A DNA stretch of 64,000 nt from Lutimonas halocynthiae. Its GTDB lineage: Bacteria; Bacteroidota; Bacteroidia; Flavobacteriales; Flavobacteriaceae. The DNA is taken from contig NZ_JAUFQO010000003.1 in NCBI RefSeq assembly GCF_030409835.1, positions 62,001 through 126,000 of the forward strand, given 5' to 3'. Positions within the stretch are counted from its first letter, which is position 1. Each line of letters starts with the position of its first letter. The position numbers and the translations under genes are program-made. The notes beneath the pieces are model-generated. The model had not been told where the DNA came from and made no database searches. It saw only the letters and a list, made by a program, of their open reading frames with translations. This document shows positions 53,671 to 64,000 of the stretch, in pieces.

Positions 53671-56600
53671 TCACTTTATTTCAAAGACTTTTACAGGCTC
53701 ATCATTTTGGGTAGCAATGATAAGATTTCTTCCCTTAGCGTCTGTGATTTTAATCATGTGGTGAGACTGGCCTTGCACGTTGAAACCTGAAGTCCTACTC
53801 GGTATAACTTCGAATTGTTTTCCATCGGTTTTCACTAATAAGCCTGTTAAGGCATCAAATTGCCCATAATTAGATTCTGCGGTAAAATCGTTACCAACAG
53901 CAAGAAATTCAGATTGGCCGTTTTGATCAAAATCGTAGACCAGCAAGTCATTGATAGGAGACACCTGCAGGCTCTTAGGTAAGCCTCTGATTTTAAAATT
54001 TCCTTCCCCTAGATTCTCAATATAAGAGCTTTCAAAAGTCGTTGCTTTCAGCGTTTCCGATTCGAGGTCTTTGATGTTCAGCAAAGTTTCAAAATCCTTT
54101 TTGACAAAATCTTCGTAAGAATAAAAATCAACCATAGATTCAGGAAATTGCATTTTGATATCTTCTCGGCCATGAATAGGGTATAGAATCTGATCTCCTT
54201 CGTGTTCAAAATATTGGCCTAGAAGTGGGTCGTATATTTCGTTGCCGTTATAGTCTCCATTATAAACATAAACAGGATAATTATCTTTTGGTCTTACAAA
54301 ACCATTTAATCCCTGATTTCCAACAATAAAATCTATATCTCCGTCCTGATCAAAATCGGATGATTCAATGCAGTTCCACCATCCTTCAGTGCTGCTATTT
54401 TTATTATTTCCATCAAACCATTTGATTGATAGATGCTGTAATTTCCCTTCGTAATTTTTGTAAATACTGATAGGCATAAATTCACCAACAACGATGAGAT
54501 CATCCCAGGAGTCATTGTCTATATCTCTCCATATGGCATCTGTAACCATTCCAATCTCAGAGATGCCTGAATGATTTTGCTCTGTAAAAATCCCATTATT
54601 ATTGATAAGAATTGAACTATGAGGTGTTTTTGGATAGTTAAACGCAGTTATTCGAGCGCCAATGAATAAATCCAGATCATTATCTTGATCAATATCTACT
54701 GGTCTAACACAACCAGTACTTTGAAACAATTCAGGTAAAGATTTTTCAGATTTTATAAAATGACCATCTCCGTTATTCAAGTATAATCGATCTAAAAAGT
54801 TTGGAGAATTATTATAAAATTCATTTCCTCCACTTGCCACATACAGATCGAGATCATTGTCATTGTCTGCATCAAAAAAGACGGCATCGGTGTCTTCATA
54901 AATCGAGTCGAGAACCTGTTTAGGATAATAAACTCCATTCTCATTTTGAAACCAAATGGTTCCTGGTTTCTTATGACTGCCACCGATAAATATTTCATCA
55001 CCTTTTATACCATCAATGTCAGCGGCCGCGATGCATGGCCCGGATTGTGAATATTGACGCATCAATAAGGGTTGATCCTTGAATTCGTTATGCCTGTTCT
55101 CTTGATGTGTAAATTTCAATAAACTATCCCTTGATGTGAACTGGAATTCCGCTTGGTTAGTGGGTTTTTTATAGTTCACTCCGCTAACTTGCTCAATTTC
55201 CAATACCTGATCTGGCTTTGGATTGAGCAGGGTGGTTTTAGTTCCATCAGGCCAAATAACATGTAAGGAGTCAATAATGCTTGTTTTTAAACCAAAGTGT
55301 ATAATAGGATCTATCGATGATAAATAGCCTCTGATCACTGAATGGAACTGGTGTTGTTGCTGGCCTTCATGCCAAAGAACAATTTTCGACCCAATGGCAT
55401 GTGTGTTCAGATCGTTGCCTTTTAATTTAAGCCTCAGATAATGATTTTCGAGTTTTTCAGAAGTCTTGTTTTCAAGTAGGAAAGCCTTACTATTGATATT
55501 GTTAATCACCATGTCAAGATCTCCATCCAAATCAAAATCAGCATAGGCCACTCCATTTGACAAAGAAGGCCTGGATTCAGTCCAGATACTGGATACGTCT
55601 TCAAATTGATCACCATCTTTTTGTTCATAAAAGAAGTTGGGTTCTATGATGGCAGGAAGGTCTTGTGCATAGGTTTTTAATTTATCCTTTTTAGGTGTAA
55701 ATAAATTGGTTTTCTGTGTTGTAAAATCAATATAGTCAAGGTCAATAACATCTTTGATATAACCGTTGGTGACAAAAATGTCTTTGTCTCCGTCATTGTC
55801 AAAATCAACCATTAATGAAGCCCAACTCCAGTCAGTGCCTGAAATTCCGTGCATAAACCCTACTTCACTACTTCTAATAGGCTGACCGTCTAGATGTCCA
55901 TTGCCCAGCTGCAGCGTATTCCTCATATATTGCAGCGTATAGTTATTATCCTTGACTACCATATAGGCTGAATAATTCATGCCACCCAACACTCGTTTTT
56001 GGCGATTATAACTGTTTGGAAACATGTCCATTACCAGAATGTCCCAAAGACCATCATTGTTAATGTCACTGATATCCATTCCCATCCCATTGCTGGTCAT
56101 ATGACCAACATACTTTTTGTTGGATTCCTCGAAAAAAGGGTTCAGGCTATCATGATGCGCTTTGTTTATGTATAAGAGATCTTCAGTAATAAAATCATTG
56201 GAAACATACACGTCAACCAGTTGGTCATCATTGAAATCAGCTATGCCAACTCCAAGACCGAAACCGGAATGTGTTACATTTAATTCTTTTGAAACATTTG
56301 TGAAAACAGGATGATCAATTCCTTCAATAGCATCATTTCGGAGTAAATAATCACTGAGGTATTCTGGCCAGAATTGTTTGGGCCTCGCTATATTCCTATT
56401 GTAATTTGTATTGTTTTTATTATGAACGATATACACGTCAAGATCTCCGTCTTGGTCATAGTCAAAAAACACAGATTGCGTGGCATAATTTCCATCATCA
56501 AGACCATATGCCTTAGCCTGTTCGGTAAAGGTTGGAATACCTTCTTCGTTAAGCCCTTGATTCACAAAAAGCAGGTTAAAACAATTGTCGTCGCAGGCAA

Positions 56601-57069
56601 GACCGGCAACATTTAAATAGATGTCATCCCAACCATCTGCGTTGATATCTACTATAGAGACACCAGTTACCCAGCTTTTGGTGATAAATTGAGCCTTTTC
56701 AGAAACATTTTCAAATTTCAGGTTTCCTTTATTGAGATATAAAGCAGACGAAACCTGATTTCCCGTAAAAACAACATCTGAGAGACCATCATTATTAAAA
56801 TCACCGATACCCACACCAGCACCGTTAAAACAATTTAAGCAGTCAATGGGGTTGATACTATCATTCTCCGTTATGGTATTGACAAAATCAAGTTGAGATT
56901 TGTCGGGATCCACAAATTCAAATAGATTTTTTTTGGGATTGGAATTGCACCCTGAGAATAAGATCATTAGTCCAAATACTGATAGCAGTATGCGATTTTC
57001 AAGTCTATAATTGTATAATCTTTTCAAGCTAAAATTTTTCAAATTCTGACATTTTGAAGGGATAGTCAA
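53671..57069 (-). CDS. large FG-GAP/VCBS-repeat lipoprotein with ASPIC/UnbV domain (CRTAC1-like)
   Basis: 1132 residues. Probable lipoprotein: hydrophobic segment ending MILFSGC (Cys about 41), although the N-terminal leader is long and a later start is possible. Repeated Ca-binding loops of the DxDxDG type (DFNNDGLSDV, DYDQDGDLDVY, DINNDGLWDI) mark integrin-like FG-GAP propeller blades on both sides of a central ASPIC/UnbV module (about 570-640, HAIGSKIVLWHEG). Proteins of this size sit at the outer membrane in Bacteroidota, often near SusCD pairs; no such pair is present here. Divergent from the 568-residue CRTAC1 gene. Confidence 0.9.
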   Translation of the reverse strand: MTIPSKCQNLKNFSLKRLYNYRLENRILLSVFGLMILFSGCNSNPKKNLFEFVDPDKSQLDFVNTITENDSINPIDCLNCFNGAGVGIGDFNNDGLSDVVFTGNQVSSALYLNKGNLKFENVSEKAQFITKSWVTGVSIVDINADGWDDIYLNVAGLACDDNCFNLLFVNQGLNEEGIPTFTEQAKAYGLDDGNYATQSVFFDYDQDGDLDVYIVHNKNNTNYNRNIARPKQFWPEYLSDYLLRNDAIEGIDHPVFTNVSKELNVTHSGFGLGVGIADFNDDQLVDVYVSNDFITEDLLYINKAHHDSLNPFFEESNKKYVGHMTSNGMGMDISDINNDGLWDILVMDMFPNSYNRQKRVLGGMNYSAYMVVKDNNYTLQYMRNTLQLGNGHLDGQPIRSSEVGFMHGISGTDWSWASLMVDFDNDGDKDIFVTNGYIKDVIDLDYIDFTTQKTNLFTPKKDKLKTYAQDLPAIIEPNFFYEQKDGDQFEDVSSIWTESRPSLSNGVAYADFDLDGDLDMVINNINSKAFLLENKTSEKLENHYLRLKLKGNDLNTHAIGSKIVLWHEGQQQHQFHSVIRGYLSSIDPIIHFGLKTSIIDSLHVIWPDGTKTTLLNPKPDQVLEIEQVSGVNYKKPTNQAEFQFTSRDSLLKFTHQENRHNEFKDQPLLMRQYSQSGPCIAAADIDGIKGDEIFIGGSHKKPGTIWFQNENGVYYPKQVLDSIYEDTDAVFFDADNDNDLDLYVASGGNEFYNNSPNFLDRLYLNNGDGHFIKSEKSLPELFQSTGCVRPVDIDQDNDLDLFIGARITAFNYPKTPHSSILINNNGIFTEQNHSGISEIGMVTDAIWRDIDNDSWDDLIVVGEFMPISIYKNYEGKLQHLSIKWFDGNNKNSSTEGWWNCIESSDFDQDGDIDFIVGNQGLNGFVRPKDNYPVYVYNGDYNGNEIYDPLLGQYFEHEGDQILYPIHGREDIKMQFPESMVDFYSYEDFVKKDFETLLNIKDLESETLKATTFESSYIENLGEGNFKIRGLPKSLQVSPINDLLVYDFDQNGQSEFLAVGNDFTAESNYGQFDALTGLLVKTDGKQFEVIPSRTSGFNVQGQSHHMIKITDAKGRNLIIATQNDEPVKVFEIK

Positions 57070-57361: not shown

Positions 57362-59068
57362 ATGAAACAAAGCTACCAAAAGCAATCATTATATATTTCT
57401 GATATCATAAAGAAAGTATTTGTTTACTTGCTTATCCTGATACTCTTTAATTTTTGTAACTCAGAAGACAAAAAGCAGTTGCCTAAAACCGAACATAAGA
57501 TTGAAAATCCTGACGCTAATGAGGAATATTTTCAGGAAATCGCAGCTGATATAGGACTTGACTTTGTCCATAGTATTGGTGCCGCAGAAATGGAAAATAT
57601 TATAGAGTCAGTGGGGGGTGGAGCAGCCTTTCTTGATTTTGATCAAGATGGTTTTATGGATATTTATACTTGTAGTGGAACCTGGGTAGAGGGATTTAGT
57701 AAAACTAAACCGCCCGTCTCTGATCATTACAATCGATTATACAGGAATTTAACGGATGGAACTTTTCAGGAGGTGAGTATAAAGGCTGGCGTGGCAGGCC
57801 CATGGTATAGTATGGGTATTACGGTGGGTGATGTGAACAATGATGGGTATCCTGATATTTATTTAAGTAATTATGGAGACAATACACTATACCTTAATAA
57901 AGGGGATGGAACCTTTGAAGATATTACTGAACAAGCCGGCGTTGGGGGAGGTACAAATTGCAGTGTGGGTGCAGTATGGTTAGATTTTGATAATGACGGA
58001 CTACTCGATCTTTATGTCGGAAATTATCTCAATTATGACCCTGATTATTCCTATTATTACGCACCTGATGGTTTTCCCGGTCCGCTGGCATATGACAGCC
58101 AAAAAGATATTTTATACAAAAATCTTGGGAATAATAAATTCGAGGATGTTACAACCCCAATGGGCATCATTGATATAGATGGAAGAGCAATGGGTGTAGG
58201 AGCGGCAGACTATGATGATGACGGATTTGTTGATATTTATGTGGCCAATGACCATACGGCCAATTTTTTATGGCACAATGACGGTGGGAAAGGGTTTACA
58301 GATATGGGAACTTTGTCTGGTACTGGCTTCAGTCAGGCAGGCGAAGCTACGGTAAGCATGTCTGTTGATTTTGCTGATTATAATCATGACGAGTTGCTTG
58401 ATATATTTATTTCGGATGATAATTATTGCTCGTTATATGAAAACATTGGCAACGGTGTTTTCAAAGATAATTCATATGCTTCCGGAATTTCGATGGCCTC
58501 AGGTCAATTTGTTGGCTGGTCTTCTTCCTTTTTGGACTATGACAATGACGGTAACCCGGATATTTTTAAAGCCAACGGTGAATTAAAGCATTTATACGGG
58601 CAAGAAGACCAAATGTTTAAGAATGTTGGCGAAGGTAAGTTCAACGATACTTCACTTGATTTGAGTGCTTATTTTAGAGAAGAACATGTAGGCAGAGGTG
58701 CTTGTATAGGAGATTATGACAATGATGGAGACCTTGATATTTATATTGTCAATTTAAACGGATCAGGAAAATTCTTAAGGAATAATAAAGGGAATGCATC
58801 TAATTGGATCATTTTAGATCTGGCAGGTACCAAGAGTAACAGAGACGCGATAGGTTGCCGTATTAAGATTGTAAGTGATTCAGCTGTTCAAACCTCACAA
58901 AAAAAGAGTACTACCGGTTATCTTTCTCAGAACGATTCAAGGATACATTTTGGGCTTGGAGAATCAAACATTGTAGATCAAATTGAGATCAGGTGGCCAT
59001 CAGGGACCCATCAGGTTTTGAAACAGGTCCCCTCAAATCAGATCTTAAAAATCACAGAACCCAAATAG
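57362..59068 (+). CDS. CRTAC1-family FG-GAP protein with C-terminal ASPIC/UnbV domain
   Basis: 568 residues. N-terminal hydrophobic signal (about 18-32) ending FNFC, a non-canonical lipobox. At least six Ca-binding loops mark the blades (DFDQDGFMDIY, DVNNDGYPDIY, DFDNDGLLDLY, DYDDDGFVDIY, DYDNDGNPDIF, DYDNDGDLDIY). The C-terminal ASPIC/UnbV domain has NRDAIGCRIKI and SRIHFGLGE. Exported, probably surface-anchored. It is the first gene of the five-gene plus-strand operon; the next gene starts 11 nt later. Confidence 0.92.
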   Translation: MKQSYQKQSLYISDIIKKVFVYLLILILFNFCNSEDKKQLPKTEHKIENPDANEEYFQEIAADIGLDFVHSIGAAEMENIIESVGGGAAFLDFDQDGFMDIYTCSGTWVEGFSKTKPPVSDHYNRLYRNLTDGTFQEVSIKAGVAGPWYSMGITVGDVNNDGYPDIYLSNYGDNTLYLNKGDGTFEDITEQAGVGGGTNCSVGAVWLDFDNDGLLDLYVGNYLNYDPDYSYYYAPDGFPGPLAYDSQKDILYKNLGNNKFEDVTTPMGIIDIDGRAMGVGAADYDDDGFVDIYVANDHTANFLWHNDGGKGFTDMGTLSGTGFSQAGEATVSMSVDFADYNHDELLDIFISDDNYCSLYENIGNGVFKDNSYASGISMASGQFVGWSSSFLDYDNDGNPDIFKANGELKHLYGQEDQMFKNVGEGKFNDTSLDLSAYFREEHVGRGACIGDYDNDGDLDIYIVNLNGSGKFLRNNKGNASNWIILDLAGTKSNRDAIGCRIKIVSDSAVQTSQKKSTTGYLSQNDSRIHFGLGESNIVDQIEIRWPSGTHQVLKQVPSNQILKITEPK

Positions 59069-59079
59069 AAAAATCAAGC

Positions 59080-60495
59080 ATGAATAAAAGAACGACATCT
59101 TTTTTTATCAGTATTAGCCTAATTGTAATTGTGGCAGGGCTTTCGTTTTCATGTGAGAAAAGTGTCAAGGAAGGAGAGATTCTTATTACAGCTATTAATC
59201 CTCAATTAGATATTGTAGCATCAGAATTAAACAAGAGCGTTGCATTTTTAGAGGGCGCTGAAATTGTCATGTTCGATCCGGCGCATCCTAATAATGCCCT
59301 CTTGTCAGTTAGCAAAGAATTTTATTCGGCTGCCGGCCCATCAATTTCCTTTGATGCTCAAAAAATGTTGTTTTCAGCTCAAAAATTAAAAGGTGACTCT
59401 TGGCAGATCTATGAGATGAAACTTACAGATTTAAAATATAAACAATTGAGCGATTCTAAAACTAATTGTTATGAGCCAGCCTATCTTCCGGGTAACCGAA
59501 TAGTTTACAGTAAGGAAACAATGTTGCAAAACGGAGATATAGGGCACGCTTTATTTGTTATTGATAATGAGAATTCAACAGAGGAGAGAATAACCTTTAG
59601 TCCGGGGTCTTACTTATCTTCAAAAATACTACATGATGGCAGGCTTATAACGGTAAGTCAACAAGAGTTTTTGGATGAGGGAAGGCCTAATTTAATGGTC
59701 ATGAGGCCTGATGGTTCCAAAGAGATGAGGTTTTATAATAGCACAAAAACCGAAACTAAAATTCTCTCCGCAAATCAAGCGATAAATGGTGATATATACT
59801 TGATAGAGTCCAATAATAATGATAAAGCTTTGTTGAGCAGTATCACTTATGCCAATCCTTTGGCAAGCCGAAAAGACCTAACAAAGAATATCCGGGGTGA
59901 TATCATTTCTGCTCACCCTATGGCAGAAGGAAGTTTACTGCTTTGCTACAAAAAACTAAACGATGAACATATTGGTTTATATGAATTTGATCCTGTGCAA
60001 CAACAATTGGTGAGAACAATATATAAAAACAAAGAATACACATTTGTAGAAGCAGTTCAGGTCAGCGCAAGAACGAGACCAAAAAAAATACCAAGTGAAG
60101 TCAATATTGAAGAAAAAACGGCCTTGTTATTATGCCAGGATATCAATTTTTCGGGTCACCCAAAAAAAGACGATTTAGCACTTATTGAAAAGGCAGTTAG
60201 CATTGAACTTTTAGGCCTAGAGCAGTCTATGGGAATTGTAGATGTTGAGCAGGATGGTTCGGTTTATTTAGAAGTGAAAGCAGATACTCCTTTTAAAATA
60301 CAAACACTTGATAAGAATGGGAATATCCTTTATGGACCAAGTAGCTGGATAAATTTAAGGCCAAATGAAAGAAGGGCCTGCGTAGGTTGTCATCTAGGAA
60401 ATGAAATTGTTCCGGAAAATCGACAACCACTTGCGGTAACAAAAGATCCGATTCAAATTCCTAAAGTCGAAACACTATTGGCCAAAACAGAATAA
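59080..60495 (+). CDS. HzsA-like propeller lipoprotein with one c-type haem motif
   Basis: 471 residues from ATG 59080 (an upstream in-frame extension overlaps the previous gene). SPII signal with lipobox LSFSC (Cys25). A PD40-like propeller (about 35-350) is followed by a tail with NERRACVGCHLGN, haem motif CVGCH at 434-438, and PENRQPLAV. This tail pattern is that of hydrazine-synthase-alpha-related proteins, which are widespread beyond anammox bacteria. One haem suggests electron transfer or substrate binding; hydrazine chemistry should not be assumed. Confidence 0.86.
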   Translation: MNKRTTSFFISISLIVIVAGLSFSCEKSVKEGEILITAINPQLDIVASELNKSVAFLEGAEIVMFDPAHPNNALLSVSKEFYSAAGPSISFDAQKMLFSAQKLKGDSWQIYEMKLTDLKYKQLSDSKTNCYEPAYLPGNRIVYSKETMLQNGDIGHALFVIDNENSTEERITFSPGSYLSSKILHDGRLITVSQQEFLDEGRPNLMVMRPDGSKEMRFYNSTKTETKILSANQAINGDIYLIESNNNDKALLSSITYANPLASRKDLTKNIRGDIISAHPMAEGSLLLCYKKLNDEHIGLYEFDPVQQQLVRTIYKNKEYTFVEAVQVSARTRPKKIPSEVNIEEKTALLLCQDINFSGHPKKDDLALIEKAVSIELLGLEQSMGIVDVEQDGSVYLEVKADTPFKIQTLDKNGNILYGPSSWINLRPNERRACVGCHLGNEIVPENRQPLAVTKDPIQIPKVETLLAKTE

Positions 60496-60500
60496 ACTAA

Positions 60501-62534
60501 ATGAACAAGCTAAAGACATACCTGATTATCGGATCCGCATTGGTTCTTGGGCTGCTTGTTTTTTATCCGGGAAGACAACTGGCAAGGGCTCATGTGAATG
60601 AAAGAACCGCAGTTACTGATCATCCTCTATTATGTACCTCTTGCCATATCAGTATTTCTAAGAATAAATTGATTACCAAAATGATCAATTCAGATTATTA
60701 TTCGCCTTTTAATCTTGCTGTGGATGATGCTGAAAGCAGAATGTATGTTATAGCCCAGGATACTGACGAATTACTTGTGGTAAACCTTGAAACAAGGGTG
60801 GTCATTTCAAAAATTAAAGTAGGGAAACATCCTCATAGTGTTATTTTGGATAAGACAGCTAAGAAGGCATATGTCAGTAATCAATGGTCTGATAATGTTA
60901 ATATTATTGATTTGGAAAGTTTAAAGATTATCGCATCGCTCCAAACAGGTAATGGCCCGTCGGGGCTAATGCTTGATGCAGAAGAGAAATTCCTTTATGT
61001 TGTCAATACCTTTGCTTCAGACGTTTCAATTTTCGATTTAGCCAGCAAGCAAGAAATAAGGAGATTACAAACAGGAAATGATCCTACCGGGATTACGCTC
61101 TCCCCCTCTGGAGATCAATGCATGATCACTGCCAGAAGAGCAAATTTATCCGAATACAACGAAACCTTGATCACCGAATTAACCTTCATCGATACTAAAA
61201 ATCAGCGCGCAGTGAAACAAAATGTTGAAAGCGCTTATTTAATGGAAAATGCTGCCTATACGCCTCAAGGTGATCTTGTTTTATTCACTTTGATAAGACC
61301 AAAAAATCAGTTACCATCCGTTCAAGTAGAGGGAGGTTGGATGATGACGCATGGATTTGGGGTCATGGAAACAAATGGAGGGAATATCACACAGTTTCTT
61401 CTTGACGAACCCAATGCCTATTATCCTGACCCTTTTGATATTGAAATTGATGCGGATGGGAGAAGAGCATTTATTTCGAGCTCAGGAGTAGATCGGATTT
61501 CTGTTATAGCATTGGATACAATTAGAGCCTTACTGAAAGATGCTGATGATAAAACCCGCAAGAGTTATGCGAATAATTTAAACTTGAGTAGCAGGTTTAT
61601 TGTGAAGAGAATTCCAACGGGTGCCAGCCCGAAAGGAATAAGCCTGTCTGCTGACGGTGAAAAACTTTACGTGACTGAACAGCTCAATGATAGGATAGCC
61701 ATTATAGACACAGAAAAACTTATCAAAACGAATGAAATAGATCTTGGAGGTCCGGTAAGAGTGACGGTTGCAAGACAAGGAAGACGCCTGTTCAGTAACG
61801 CTGGGCATACTTTTCAAAATCAATATTCCTGTTATACTTGCCATCCTGATCATCATGAAGACGGATTGATTTATAATATGGCCGGAAAACATATGGGACG
61901 TAATTTGACCAATACCCAATCTTTGCGAGAAATTGGGGATACTGCTCCCTTTAAATGGAATGGAAAAAACCAAACGGTTTATAAGCAGGATGGTATGCGT
62001 TTTTCTACTGTCTTGACAAGAACTGAACAATTCAACTATGATGACCTGGATGCTATTTCTGCCTATATCATGCGCGGAATTAAACAGCCTCCAAATTTAA
62101 TGTATAATCCAAGTGGTGAATTGACGGCATCTCAGCTCAGAGGAAAGTCACTATATGAAAGAGATCATGACAAGCTGGGCAACCCGATACCTGAGAATAA
62201 CCGATGTGTCACTTGCCATCCGGCTCCCTTATATTCAGATTTGAATCTGGCAGACGTGAGTACTTTGGCAACATCTGATGATCCAATTTTATTCGATACC
62301 CCTCACTTATCCAATATTTTTGCCTCAGCACCCTATTTACACGATGGTCGTGCGAAAACGCTTGAAGAAATCTGGACCCTCTATGGTACAGATGATAAGC
62401 ATGGCTATGTTAACGATATGAGTAAAAGTGAACTCAATGATCTGGTAAATTATTTAAAATCTTTAAGGAGTCCTACATACGACAATCCCGGTCAGGAAAC
62501 ACAGCATGCAGGGCTATCCTTCTCACATAAATGA
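60501..62534 (+). CDS. triheme YVTN beta-propeller cytochrome with CCP/MauG-like C-terminus
   Basis: 677 residues. N-terminal membrane anchor or signal (about 8-22) and a first haem motif CTSCH at 45-49. A YVTN/YncE-type propeller spans about 60-420 (KVGKHPHSVILDKTAKKAYV and similar repeats). Two further haem motifs, CYTCH at 444-448 and CVTCH at 569-573, lie in a C-terminal half that resembles di-haem cytochrome c peroxidase/MauG (FDTPHLSNIFASAPYLHDGR, TLEEIW). It may oxidise or reduce a substrate, or modify a partner, at the periplasmic face. It begins 5 nt after the HzsA-like gene. Confidence 0.9.
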   Translation: MNKLKTYLIIGSALVLGLLVFYPGRQLARAHVNERTAVTDHPLLCTSCHISISKNKLITKMINSDYYSPFNLAVDDAESRMYVIAQDTDELLVVNLETRVVISKIKVGKHPHSVILDKTAKKAYVSNQWSDNVNIIDLESLKIIASLQTGNGPSGLMLDAEEKFLYVVNTFASDVSIFDLASKQEIRRLQTGNDPTGITLSPSGDQCMITARRANLSEYNETLITELTFIDTKNQRAVKQNVESAYLMENAAYTPQGDLVLFTLIRPKNQLPSVQVEGGWMMTHGFGVMETNGGNITQFLLDEPNAYYPDPFDIEIDADGRRAFISSSGVDRISVIALDTIRALLKDADDKTRKSYANNLNLSSRFIVKRIPTGASPKGISLSADGEKLYVTEQLNDRIAIIDTEKLIKTNEIDLGGPVRVTVARQGRRLFSNAGHTFQNQYSCYTCHPDHHEDGLIYNMAGKHMGRNLTNTQSLREIGDTAPFKWNGKNQTVYKQDGMRFSTVLTRTEQFNYDDLDAISAYIMRGIKQPPNLMYNPSGELTASQLRGKSLYERDHDKLGNPIPENNRCVTCHPAPLYSDLNLADVSTLATSDDPILFDTPHLSNIFASAPYLHDGRAKTLEEIWTLYGTDDKHGYVNDMSKSELNDLVNYLKSLRSPTYDNPGQETQHAGLSFSHK

Positions 62535-62541
62535 CAGGTAT

Positions 62542-63759
62542 ATGAAATATATGAAGCAACATAAAAAATCACCTACAGCCATAATCATAGCTGGACTTTT
62601 CATTTTTATTTCGGTCAGTTTTATCAAAATAAATCTCGGTGCTGATGAGCCTGTATCTTCAGGTTTTTTAGCAGATGAAAATAACTTGGATGTAACTTCA
62701 ATATCGAACGAATCGACTCTTTCCGAATCAGATAACGTGATGCCGATTTACGGTAATTGGGAACATTTTACATCGAAAAATGGCTTGCCTTCAGATAAAA
62801 CATATTGCGTTCGAATTGATGAAGGCCGGGTTTTAGTTGGCACGCATGATGGATTATCCGTATTTGAAAAGGGCGCATGGACTACCTATACTACTGAAGA
62901 TGGCTTGGCCCATAACGGCGTATTGGCTATAGACGTTAGCGAACAAACAGGAGATGTTTGGGTCGCCACAATGGGTGGCTTGTCTCGTTTTACCGCGGGC
63001 AAATTCGAAAATTTTAACCAAATGAACAGCGGTATGCCCAATGATCTTATCTATGCAGTAACCTGCGATGGCAAAGATGTTTGGGTTGCTACAGGTGGAG
63101 GTGCAGGTAAATACAACACGTTTAATAAAGAATGGGAGATCTTCACTGAAGAAAATGCACCTATGCATGAACCTTGGACCTATGGAATTTGTAGCGGGGA
63201 TAATAAAATTTATATAGCTGCCTGGGGAGGAGGTATCGTAGAATACAACAAGAAAAACGGACAATTCAGAGATTATACTGATCCGGATGGTAATATGGAA
63301 ATCGATCTCTTCCCGGATGACGGTCTGGTTCATGACATCACAACTGGTGCTTCCTGGGCTGATGGTATGCTATGGGTGGGAACTTATTTTGGGCTCAGCC
63401 GATATGATGGAACACGATGGAAAGGATATTTTGATCACGATAGCGGACTGGCCAGTAATTTTATCAATTATATCAAGGCTTCCGGAAAGTATGTTTATAT
63501 CTGTACAGACAAAGGGTTAAGTATCAGTGATGGTGAAAACTGGGTGACGTATACCCGCAACAAGGAAAATTTTTCAGGAAGCGCTGAGATCTTGATGGGA
63601 ACTCAAAAGACTGAAATCCCATTAAATCCTTCTTTGTCTCATAACTATGTTTTAGGCGTGGATATGAAGGATGACATGATCTGGGTAGCCACCTCAAAAG
63701 GCTTGAGCCGAGGTGAAATAATTAACAAAGAAGATATGGGTCTGGCTACGTCAGACTAA
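62542..63759 (+). CDS. exported two-component-regulator-type propeller protein
   Basis: 405 residues from ATG 62542, preceded by AGG and 7 nt past the previous stop; ATG 62551 is a close alternative. An N-terminal hydrophobic segment (about 12-28) is a signal or anchor. Repeats with NGLPSDKTYCV, GTHDGLSVFEKG, VWVATMGGLSRF and related strings are Reg_prop blades, as in the sensor parts of hybrid two-component systems, but no histidine kinase follows. It may be a free-standing ligand-binding propeller. Confidence 0.87.
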   Translation: MKYMKQHKKSPTAIIIAGLFIFISVSFIKINLGADEPVSSGFLADENNLDVTSISNESTLSESDNVMPIYGNWEHFTSKNGLPSDKTYCVRIDEGRVLVGTHDGLSVFEKGAWTTYTTEDGLAHNGVLAIDVSEQTGDVWVATMGGLSRFTAGKFENFNQMNSGMPNDLIYAVTCDGKDVWVATGGGAGKYNTFNKEWEIFTEENAPMHEPWTYGICSGDNKIYIAAWGGGIVEYNKKNGQFRDYTDPDGNMEIDLFPDDGLVHDITTGASWADGMLWVGTYFGLSRYDGTRWKGYFDHDSGLASNFINYIKASGKYVYICTDKGLSISDGENWVTYTRNKENFSGSAEILMGTQKTEIPLNPSLSHNYVLGVDMKDDMIWVATSKGLSRGEIINKEDMGLATSD

Positions 63760-63797
63760 AACCAATATAGATTATAAAATAATAAAAAGCAGGAATT

Positions 63798-64000
63798 ATG
63801 AGCAATACATTAGACATTCAGGAAAGAAAATTATTGATAGACCTTAATAAACTCACCGACGGTGAAAAATTAGAAATGCGCAAACTGGGAATTTTATCTG
63901 ATGATAATATGATAAGCCCATCTGTTTATCCAGAGGTTCACGCAGACAGGCCTCCAATTGAAAAACATGTGGTTCATGCGCCACAAACTATCAACGAAGC
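63798..64000 (+). CDS. partial gene of unknown function, truncated by the window edge
   Basis: ATG 63798 with GGA at 63792-63794 upstream opens a frame that stays open through the last 67 codons of the window. The visible N-terminus is charged and polar (MSNTLDIQERKLLIDLNKL) with no signal peptide, then a Pro/His-rich stretch. It is 38 nt downstream of the Reg_prop gene and on the same strand, so it is probably the fifth gene of that operon. Confidence 0.75.
   Translation, partial: MSNTLDIQERKLLIDLNKLTDGEKLEMRKLGILSDDNMISPSVYPEVHADRPPIEKHVVHAPQTINE

Follow-up and report, generated by a model that had tools for sequence, protein, structure and literature searches.

Hydrazine synthase (HZS), the key enzyme of anaerobic ammonium oxidation (anammox) bacteria, bears a characteristic set of features that includes Tyr591 as the proximal ligand of haem alphaI, a His587 that binds zinc, Asp168, and a second alpha haem, alphaII, with bis-His coordination (PMC12607021). 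A study from December 2025, which starts from the view that HZS is without homologues in other species, describes such homologues in several clades, one of them named clade III: here, an FG-GAP gene lies upstream of alpha, the beta-gamma protein carries an extra haem, alpha is devoid of haem alphaII, and two genes for ATP-binding cassette (ABC) substrate-binding proteins (SBPs) follow downstream (PMC12758564). Replacements of catalytic HZS residues are reported for clades I–III (PMC12758564, section 8), and the same work argues against hydrazine synthesis by the homologues and, in the sections consulted, assigns them no other function. A further study reports hzs-like genes in Planctomycetota and KSB1, puts forward some Phycisphaerae as candidates for additional anammox bacteria, and suggests that the enzyme family is broader and may act on other substrates (PMC10732223). 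In the following, we describe a related gene cluster of the marine flavobacterium Lutimonas halocynthiae, which starts near the right edge of a stretch of 64,000 nucleotides (contig NZ_JAUFQO010000003.1, positions 62,001 to 126,000)—referred to as the window—and extends beyond it.

The two haem proteins of this cluster are homologous to HZS alpha and HZS beta-gamma. By shared features—not by tree placement—the core of the cluster matches clade III: common to both are the order of FG-GAP gene, alpha, and fused beta-gamma, the extra beta-gamma haem, a short alpha without alphaII, and two downstream SBP genes. The core is, as far as the consulted sections of PMC12758564 go, already in print as uncharacterized HZS homologues. 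With such relatives at hand, the statement of the first-pass annotation of this DNA that the assembly could not be matched to a described system no longer stands. The cluster probably encodes a clade III, HZS-like haem oxidoreductase of the cell envelope, which would not be a hydrazine synthase and most likely carries out a different haem-driven reaction.

The alpha-like and beta-gamma-like haem proteins

The 471-residue alpha-like lipoprotein matches the HZS alpha middle domain (PF18582) above the cut-off (65.8 vs 26.6 bits), and its closest PDB chain by sequence is HZS alpha (5c2v_A). Its AlphaFold2 model (predicted local distance difference test, pLDDT, of 83) leads Foldseek to the same chain (E 1.2e-25, template-modelling score 0.80 by query length); 5c2v_D—the second copy of 5c2v_A—is matched as well, and the next fold is TolB (E 3.6e-12). 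Of the 27 distinct orthologues that are 400 residues or longer, 23 carry the CxxCH motif; left out of this count are L041 (a shorter, broken frame that also carries CxxCH), L017 (starting at a contig end), and L016 (no HzsA match beside a run of N). None of the 27 sequences bears more than one CxxCH, hence the second haem motif (alphaII) is absent, and a Tyr591-type proximal ligand—a Tyr up to six residues past the motif His—is found in 0 of the 23 CxxCH-bearing proteins.

The 677-residue protein downstream consists of an N-terminal hydrophobic segment, an extra haem site (CTSCH), a YVTN propeller, and a di-haem domain similar to cytochrome c peroxidase (CCP) and MauG (CYTCH and CVTCH, at C444–H448 and C569–H573). 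It aligns with HZS beta over residues 62–404 and with HZS gamma over 418–655, and matches the corresponding PDB chains with E values of 4e-36 (5c2v_B) and 5e-16 (5c2v_C). As a profile of its di-haem half, made from nine sequences, reaches 106 bits with HZS gamma (5c2v_C) and 39 bits with the next chain (6e1c, an MbnH-type di-haem enzyme), the protein is, on profile evidence, a relative of HZS beta-gamma and not a generic YVTN plus CCP protein. Family models place it less sharply: PF03150 is passed by the protein as a whole (33.5 vs 25.6 bits) with no individual stretch passing, and the YVTN propeller model TIGR03866 gives 112 bits at a cut-off of 287. The NCBIfam cut-offs for HZS are all missed, with 91 of 800 bits for alpha (NF052339), 166 of 560 for beta, 76 of 625 for gamma, and 187 of 1250 for the beta-gamma fusion (NF052342).

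The four c-type haem motifs pointed out in the first-pass annotation—CVGCH in the HzsA-like protein and three in the triheme protein—are conserved among orthologues. Since all three beta-gamma motifs are kept in 30 of 30 distinct orthologues and the alpha motif in the 23 mentioned above, they are not a matter of chance. In the alignment to 5c2v_C, W486 takes the position of gamma His144 and is a Trp in 30/30 proteins; a Trp at this position has been likened to the one used for catalysis by CCP and MauG (PMC12758564). Gln496, Arg500, and Glu509 are, like Trp486, invariant (30/30). The gamma Cys165 position is held by D497 in the window protein and by Asp in 26/30, the remaining four being the Balneolaceae proteins. 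Within the propeller, a strongly conserved loop, PKN/PRN...E.G, lines up with PKNWLPVCEAENG in HZS beta. We identify it as the putative counterpart of the tunnel loop between the gamma and alpha sites (PMC12758564; PMC12607021), whose magnesium-binding Glu is not conserved in HZS homologues (PMC12758564), and the channel architecture may be kept. As catalytic HZS residues are missing, hydrazine synthesis by the cluster appears unlikely.

A variant of this arrangement is found in Balneolaceae. In 4/4 loci (L036, L037, L038, and L040), the alpha haem motif is gone, with GCVGCH turned into a GFxxW-type sequence, and a fifth alpha-like sequence, from a genome with a Balneolaceae label, is also without it. 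The four beta-gamma proteins keep all three CxxCH motifs and bear a Cys at the gamma Cys165 position. Because the alpha haem can be lost here while all beta-gamma haems are retained, the propeller–CCP/MauG-like protein is probably the catalytic engine of the cluster. Identities to the window proteins range from 24 to 51% for the alpha-like and from 45 to 74% for the beta-gamma-like proteins. From the haem and residue patterns, we read the alpha-like protein as a partner that can do without its haem. Balneolaceae—without the alpha haem motif, with the third Cys in gamma—and Bacteroidia—with the reverse—thus offer a natural comparison for locating the catalytic site.

Layout, conservation, and distribution of the cluster

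In the window genome (3.99 Mb, 99.9% complete), the cluster is a string of 11 closely spaced genes on the (+) strand, spanning about 17 kb (Table 1). The four complete open reading frames at the window edge, the cut fifth one, and the gaps of 11, 5, 7, and 38 nucleotides between them lie exactly where the first-pass annotation had put them; for the Reg_prop gene, a further in-frame ATG exists upstream, at 62506. Sequence right of position 64000, taken from the window's own genome, completes the fifth gene and adds six more on the same strand, the gaps from the RidA-like to the radical SAM gene being 12, 37, 81, −11, 89, and 5 nucleotides. The fifth protein is indeed cut by the edge, and its label as unknown gives way to a Rid/YjgF-family protein. 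From the intergenic gaps, we infer that the string forms one transcript; a scan for promoters and terminators was no richer than in shuffled sequence (58 vs 58.1 and 10 vs 11.1).

Table 1. Genes of the cluster in window coordinates; positions past 64000 correspond to the L003 position + 57000.
Gene product	Position	Strand	Support
ASPIC1, FG-GAP/ASPIC (CRTAC1-like) lipoprotein, 568 residues	57362-59068	+	PF13517 165 bits, PF07593 75 bits
HZS alpha-like lipoprotein, 471 residues, CVGCH	59080-60495	+	PF18582 65.8 bits, cut-off 26.6
HZS beta-gamma-like fusion, 677 residues, CTSCH/CYTCH/CVTCH	60501-62534	+	NF052342, 5c2v_B, 5c2v_C
Reg_prop beta-propeller protein, N-terminal hydrophobic segment	62542-63759	+	PF07494 22.6 bits, cut-off 20.4
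RidA/YjgF-like (Rid family), 197 residues	63798-64391 (L003:6798-7391)	+	PF01042 56.7 bits
SBP1, Peripla_BP_6 substrate-binding protein	64404-65714	+	Peripla_BP_6
SBP2, Peripla_BP_6 substrate-binding protein, TTG start	65752-66810	+	Peripla_BP_6
TPR-FG-GAP-ASPIC (TPR-ASPIC) lipoprotein, start probable	66892-70452	+	library scan
ASPIC2, second FG-GAP-ASPIC protein	70442-72097	+	library scan
AsnB-like, asparagine-synthase-domain protein	72187-73518	+	library scan
Radical SAM protein	73524-74480	+	library scan

The four different beta-propeller families noticed at first pass are all backed: FG-GAP (PF13517), TolB/HZS-alpha-type, YVTN/YncE, and Reg_prop (PF07494). Read by eye, the N-termini of ASPIC1 (with a lipobox-like LFNFC), of the alpha-like protein, and of the TPR-ASPIC protein are of the lipoprotein type; a signal peptide was not seen, again by eye, on the RidA-like protein. 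The lipoprotein-type N-termini, the conserved haem motifs, and a gene order kept across families and classes support the earlier view of a redox assembly at the surface or in the periplasm. Divergent from the cluster, on the (−) strand at 53671-57069, lies a gene for a 1132-residue FG-GAP/ASPIC lipoprotein, whose relatives adjoin the cluster in several other loci, sometimes in two copies.

The same gene order, sought across Bacteroidota as the first-pass annotation had proposed, recurs for the most part in 30 distinct loci of Bacteroidota and Balneolaceae—the window genome, 28 further loci, and one same-genus genome. The neighbours are thus conserved together, and a characterized pathway that fits them was not found, so the refuting test set in the first-pass annotation leaves its reading standing. 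Counting how often the next labelled gene is the one seen in the window, in loci whose contig allowed the test, ASPIC1 is followed by alpha in 28/28, alpha by beta-gamma in 28/28, and beta-gamma by Reg_prop in 29/29 cases. Further downstream, RidA-like leads to SBP1 in 23/23, SBP1 to SBP2 in 13/22, and SBP2 to TPR-ASPIC in 20/24. The nine misses between SBP1 and SBP2 comprise two Balneolaceae and seven loci in which a DAHP synthase gene separates the pair. TPR-ASPIC is followed by ASPIC2 in 17/33; the 16 misses include Balneolaceae loci, L032, L016, and upstream homologues of the 1132-residue FG-GAP protein that were matched by the TPR-ASPIC query. ASPIC2 precedes AsnB in 12/12, and AsnB precedes the radical SAM gene in 2/3—a low count because most loci stop within AsnB. 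The alpha-like and ASPIC1 genes were not found in L016 (an upstream run of N) and L017 (contig end). Taken together, the order of the first nine genes recurs, with rearrangements in Balneolaceae.

This rearrangement places TPR-ASPIC and SBP2 upstream of ASPIC1 in the four Balneolaceae loci, with ASPIC2 not among the labelled genes. In the tree of 30 beta-gamma sequences, the Balneolaceae (4 rows, 100/100 support) stand apart from Bacteroidota (24 rows). Downstream of SBP1, a SusC-like gene is seen in 3/4 of these loci (L037, L038, and L040; L036 ends earlier), confirmed for L038 by a family search made for this locus only, and a SusD-like gene is present in L037 and L038. The SusC/SusD pair follows directly after SBP1 in L038 (L038:15665-20168) and two genes further on in L037 (L037:18419-21854). 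The argument of the first-pass annotation that a lack of SusC/D speaks against ordinary polysaccharide uptake is hence a weak one, and the Balneolaceae pairs hint that uptake across the outer membrane may be tied to the cluster.

Overall, the cluster is rare: it was found in 4 of 395 sampled genomes of the phylum at 45–100% identity, plus one at 27%. Among relatives, 9/22 same-genus genomes and 0/18 genomes outside the genus carry it, many of these genomes being incomplete bins. It is also present in Lutimonas saemankumensis, Maribacter arenosus, M. polysiphoniae, M. luteus, and Lutibacter citreus. A second, more distant HZS-like pair occurs at G384:C2:92007-98107 (L066, L109, L128), with an HZS_alpha domain of 130 bits in a 1338-residue frame and a beta-gamma relative of 27% identity that contains one in-frame TGA.

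Possible functions

The two binding proteins score 142 and 76 bits for Peripla_BP_6 (cut-off 31.7) and are the only two matches to this family in the whole genome. A LivH/LivM-type permease (PF02653) has no match in the 99.9% complete window genome, with the control positive in 12/14 genomes. SBP1 and SBP2 are hence best read as orphan ligand-binding components of the envelope and not as belonging to a LIV-type importer. With few exceptions, a stretch G(S/A)-x-(D/E)-x4-H is common to the two families; its His is invariant in 24/24 SBP1 and 23/23 SBP2 rows, and the stretch was not seen at that place in those solved amino-acid binders whose alignments were displayed. Through these orphan proteins, the ligand can be approached directly.

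For the envelope haem oxidoreductase proposed here, a more specific scheme of oxidation and ligand can be drawn, which we hold as tentative. The alpha-like, beta-gamma-like, Reg_prop, and ASPIC proteins would be assembled at a membrane, on its periplasmic or surface face. Keeping its CCP/MauG-type Trp, the di-haem domain might generate an oxidizing species, with peroxide, O2, or a nitrogen oxide as the source, and electrons would be relayed by the second haem together with the extra haem at the N-terminus. Along the lines put forward for HZS, an intermediate or substrate might then travel past the conserved propeller loop toward the alpha-like domain, and the target of oxidation would be a small ligand bound by the two orphan SBPs of the LivJ type. 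Within the cytoplasm, the RidA-like protein, and DAHP synthase where present, would make or process this ligand. Presumed in this scheme are which way electrons flow, what the oxidant and the ligand are, and that a complex forms.

Several points weigh against the envelope haem oxidoreductase or limit its support. The assignment of F501 (Phe in 30/30 proteins) to the gamma Asp168 position lies next to an alignment gap. The AlphaFold2 model of the beta-gamma-like protein is poor in its CCP half, with pLDDT below 50 at 431-538, 570-637, and 655-677; hence, the active-site statements above rely on sequence alignment. The step from Reg_prop to RidA-like is seen in 23/26 loci and the other three have another next gene, and it is from gene order only that the SBPs, the RidA-like protein, and the haem proteins would share a role. 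The AsnB–radical SAM pair may be a mere neighbour, and biochemistry on these proteins was not found in the open-access literature searched.

An alternative that we regard as unlikely, yet partly compatible with the envelope haem oxidoreductase, is a small-molecule system, in which the RidA-like protein, DAHP synthase, AsnB-like protein, and radical SAM protein make a chorismate-linked compound, whose completion, binding, or sensing would fall to the proteins of the envelope, with the SBPs as its receptors. It draws on the DAHP synthase gene, which lies between SBP1 and SBP2 on the same strand in 7/22 testable loci (L026, L028, L031, L034, L035, L039, and L041; a family scan, made in L039 only, gave 401 bits vs a cut-off of 268) and is a possible link to the shikimate pathway; this gene is missing, however, in 15/22 loci, including the window. 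Few proteins of the cluster are as well conserved as the RidA-like one, with 66–93% identity to the window protein in nine others aligned, and its profile matches the chorismatase FkbO at 21 bits, a weak link. Rid imine deaminases carry their catalytic Arg in a PAR motif. The position of this Arg is taken by Ser or Ala in 20/20 resolved distinct RidA-like sequences (L026 was not resolved), which makes canonical imine hydrolysis unlikely; a role as a normal imine deaminase was hence dropped.

Besides the orphan-like SBPs, the same alternative can point to AsnB and/or radical SAM genes adjoining the cluster in two layouts. AsnB is found in 24/395 genomes of the phylum, each of the 23 other loci retrieved has a radical SAM gene close to it, and 20 of these 23 Bacteroidota loci bear a third gene, which in the one copy scanned (L087) is FAD-dependent halogenase/monooxygenase-like, far under the cut-offs. 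HzsBC is present in 3/23 of the other AsnB genomes and has no match in 20/23, which counts against this alternative and led us to drop the pair as an obligate part of the cluster. We treat it as a separate cassette that often adjoins the cluster, and together with the third gene, it has the look of an independent small-molecule cassette. The radical SAM protein is RaSEA-like (102 vs 212 bits) and had no credible phmmer match in the PDB; the AsnB-like protein had no phmmer match there, and its profile found four asparagine synthetases at 27–31 bits.

Protein modification of the MauG/MbnH type, in which the di-haem domain would oxidize a residue of the alpha-like protein, Reg_prop, or an SBP to a protein-derived cofactor, seems quite unlikely to us. 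The CCP/MauG-type Trp is kept and partner genes are adjacent, and there are matches—all far under cut-off—to MbnH-family (30.2 bits), MauG (20.5 bits), and quinohaemoprotein amine dehydrogenase beta (31.6 bits) models. Nevertheless, the di-haem profile lies nearer to HZS gamma than to the MbnH-type chain, a small dedicated substrate protein is not seen, and the alpha-like partner is the less conserved of the two haem proteins. Doubtful, too, is a two-site enzyme connected by a tunnel and fed by the LivJ-type receptors, in which a reactive nitrogen or oxygen intermediate formed at the gamma-like haem would meet an organic amine or aromatic on the alpha-like domain for N–N, N–O, or C–N chemistry. 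If true, such an enzyme would represent, in a living organism, a relative of the chemistry from which HZS emerged.

It is very improbable that the cluster serves merely to conduct electrons, or as a respiratory module, with a CCP domain devoid of chemistry of its own. This reading would suit the extra haem, the propeller scaffold, and the three retained beta-gamma haem motifs, but leaves the SBPs, the RidA-like protein, and the invariant Trp486, Gln496, Arg500, and Glu509 unexplained, and the labelled genes of the conserved set include neither a porin nor a multihaem chain. The window bacterium does not look anammox-like. HAO-type proteins (PF13447) have no match in its genome, in a search whose controls were silent as well and which hence speaks for neither side. 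NirS (PF02239) has one weak partial match elsewhere in the genome (27.1 vs 25.5 bits, positions 191-356 of 368). A genuine HZS within a cryptic anammox-like metabolism can practically be set aside: all three HZS parts are homologous and Balneolaceae bear the gamma Cys, but the curated models are missed widely (91 vs 800 and 187 vs 1250 bits), Tyr591, haem alphaII, His144, and Asp168 are not conserved, and NirK has no match in the window genome, in a search whose controls rang in 7/14 and exceeded the cut-off in one.

Comparison with known systems

The cluster can be set beside several described systems. In PQQ (pyrroloquinoline quinone)-dependent catabolism clusters, from which TIGR03866 stems as the likeness in the YVTN propeller, LivJ-type SBPs presumably lie near haem proteins, as they do here. 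Unlike in those clusters, the model cut-off is missed, and an ABC permease and a PQQ dehydrogenase are not among the genes labelled. With MauG, bacterial CCP, and MbnH, the cluster shares two CxxCH motifs and the Trp (W486, 30/30); it differs by the weaker profile score, by the fusion to a propeller, and by the alpha-like partner.

The likeness to Kuenenia stuttgartiensis HZS (PDB 5c2v) comprises the alpha fold, the beta propeller with a similar loop, and the gamma di-haem domain. The alpha Tyr ligand, haem alphaII, gamma His144, and Asp168 of that enzyme are not conserved here, Cys165 recurs only in Balneolaceae, beta and gamma are fused and supplemented by an extra haem, and the neighbouring genes differ. 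As the cluster is present in genomes of named strains, the function of HZS-type complexes outside anammox becomes testable.

Closest of all is clade III. The part of PMC12758564 that was consulted makes no mention of the Reg_prop, RidA-like, TPR-ASPIC, ASPIC2, DAHP synthase, AsnB, and radical SAM genes, nor of the missing permease and the alpha haem loss in Balneolaceae; a description of the longer cluster was not found in the open-access literature searched, although one may exist. Relative to that part of the study, new elements are the longer cluster, the orphan binding proteins, the intermittent DAHP synthase gene, and the loss of the alpha haem in Balneolaceae.

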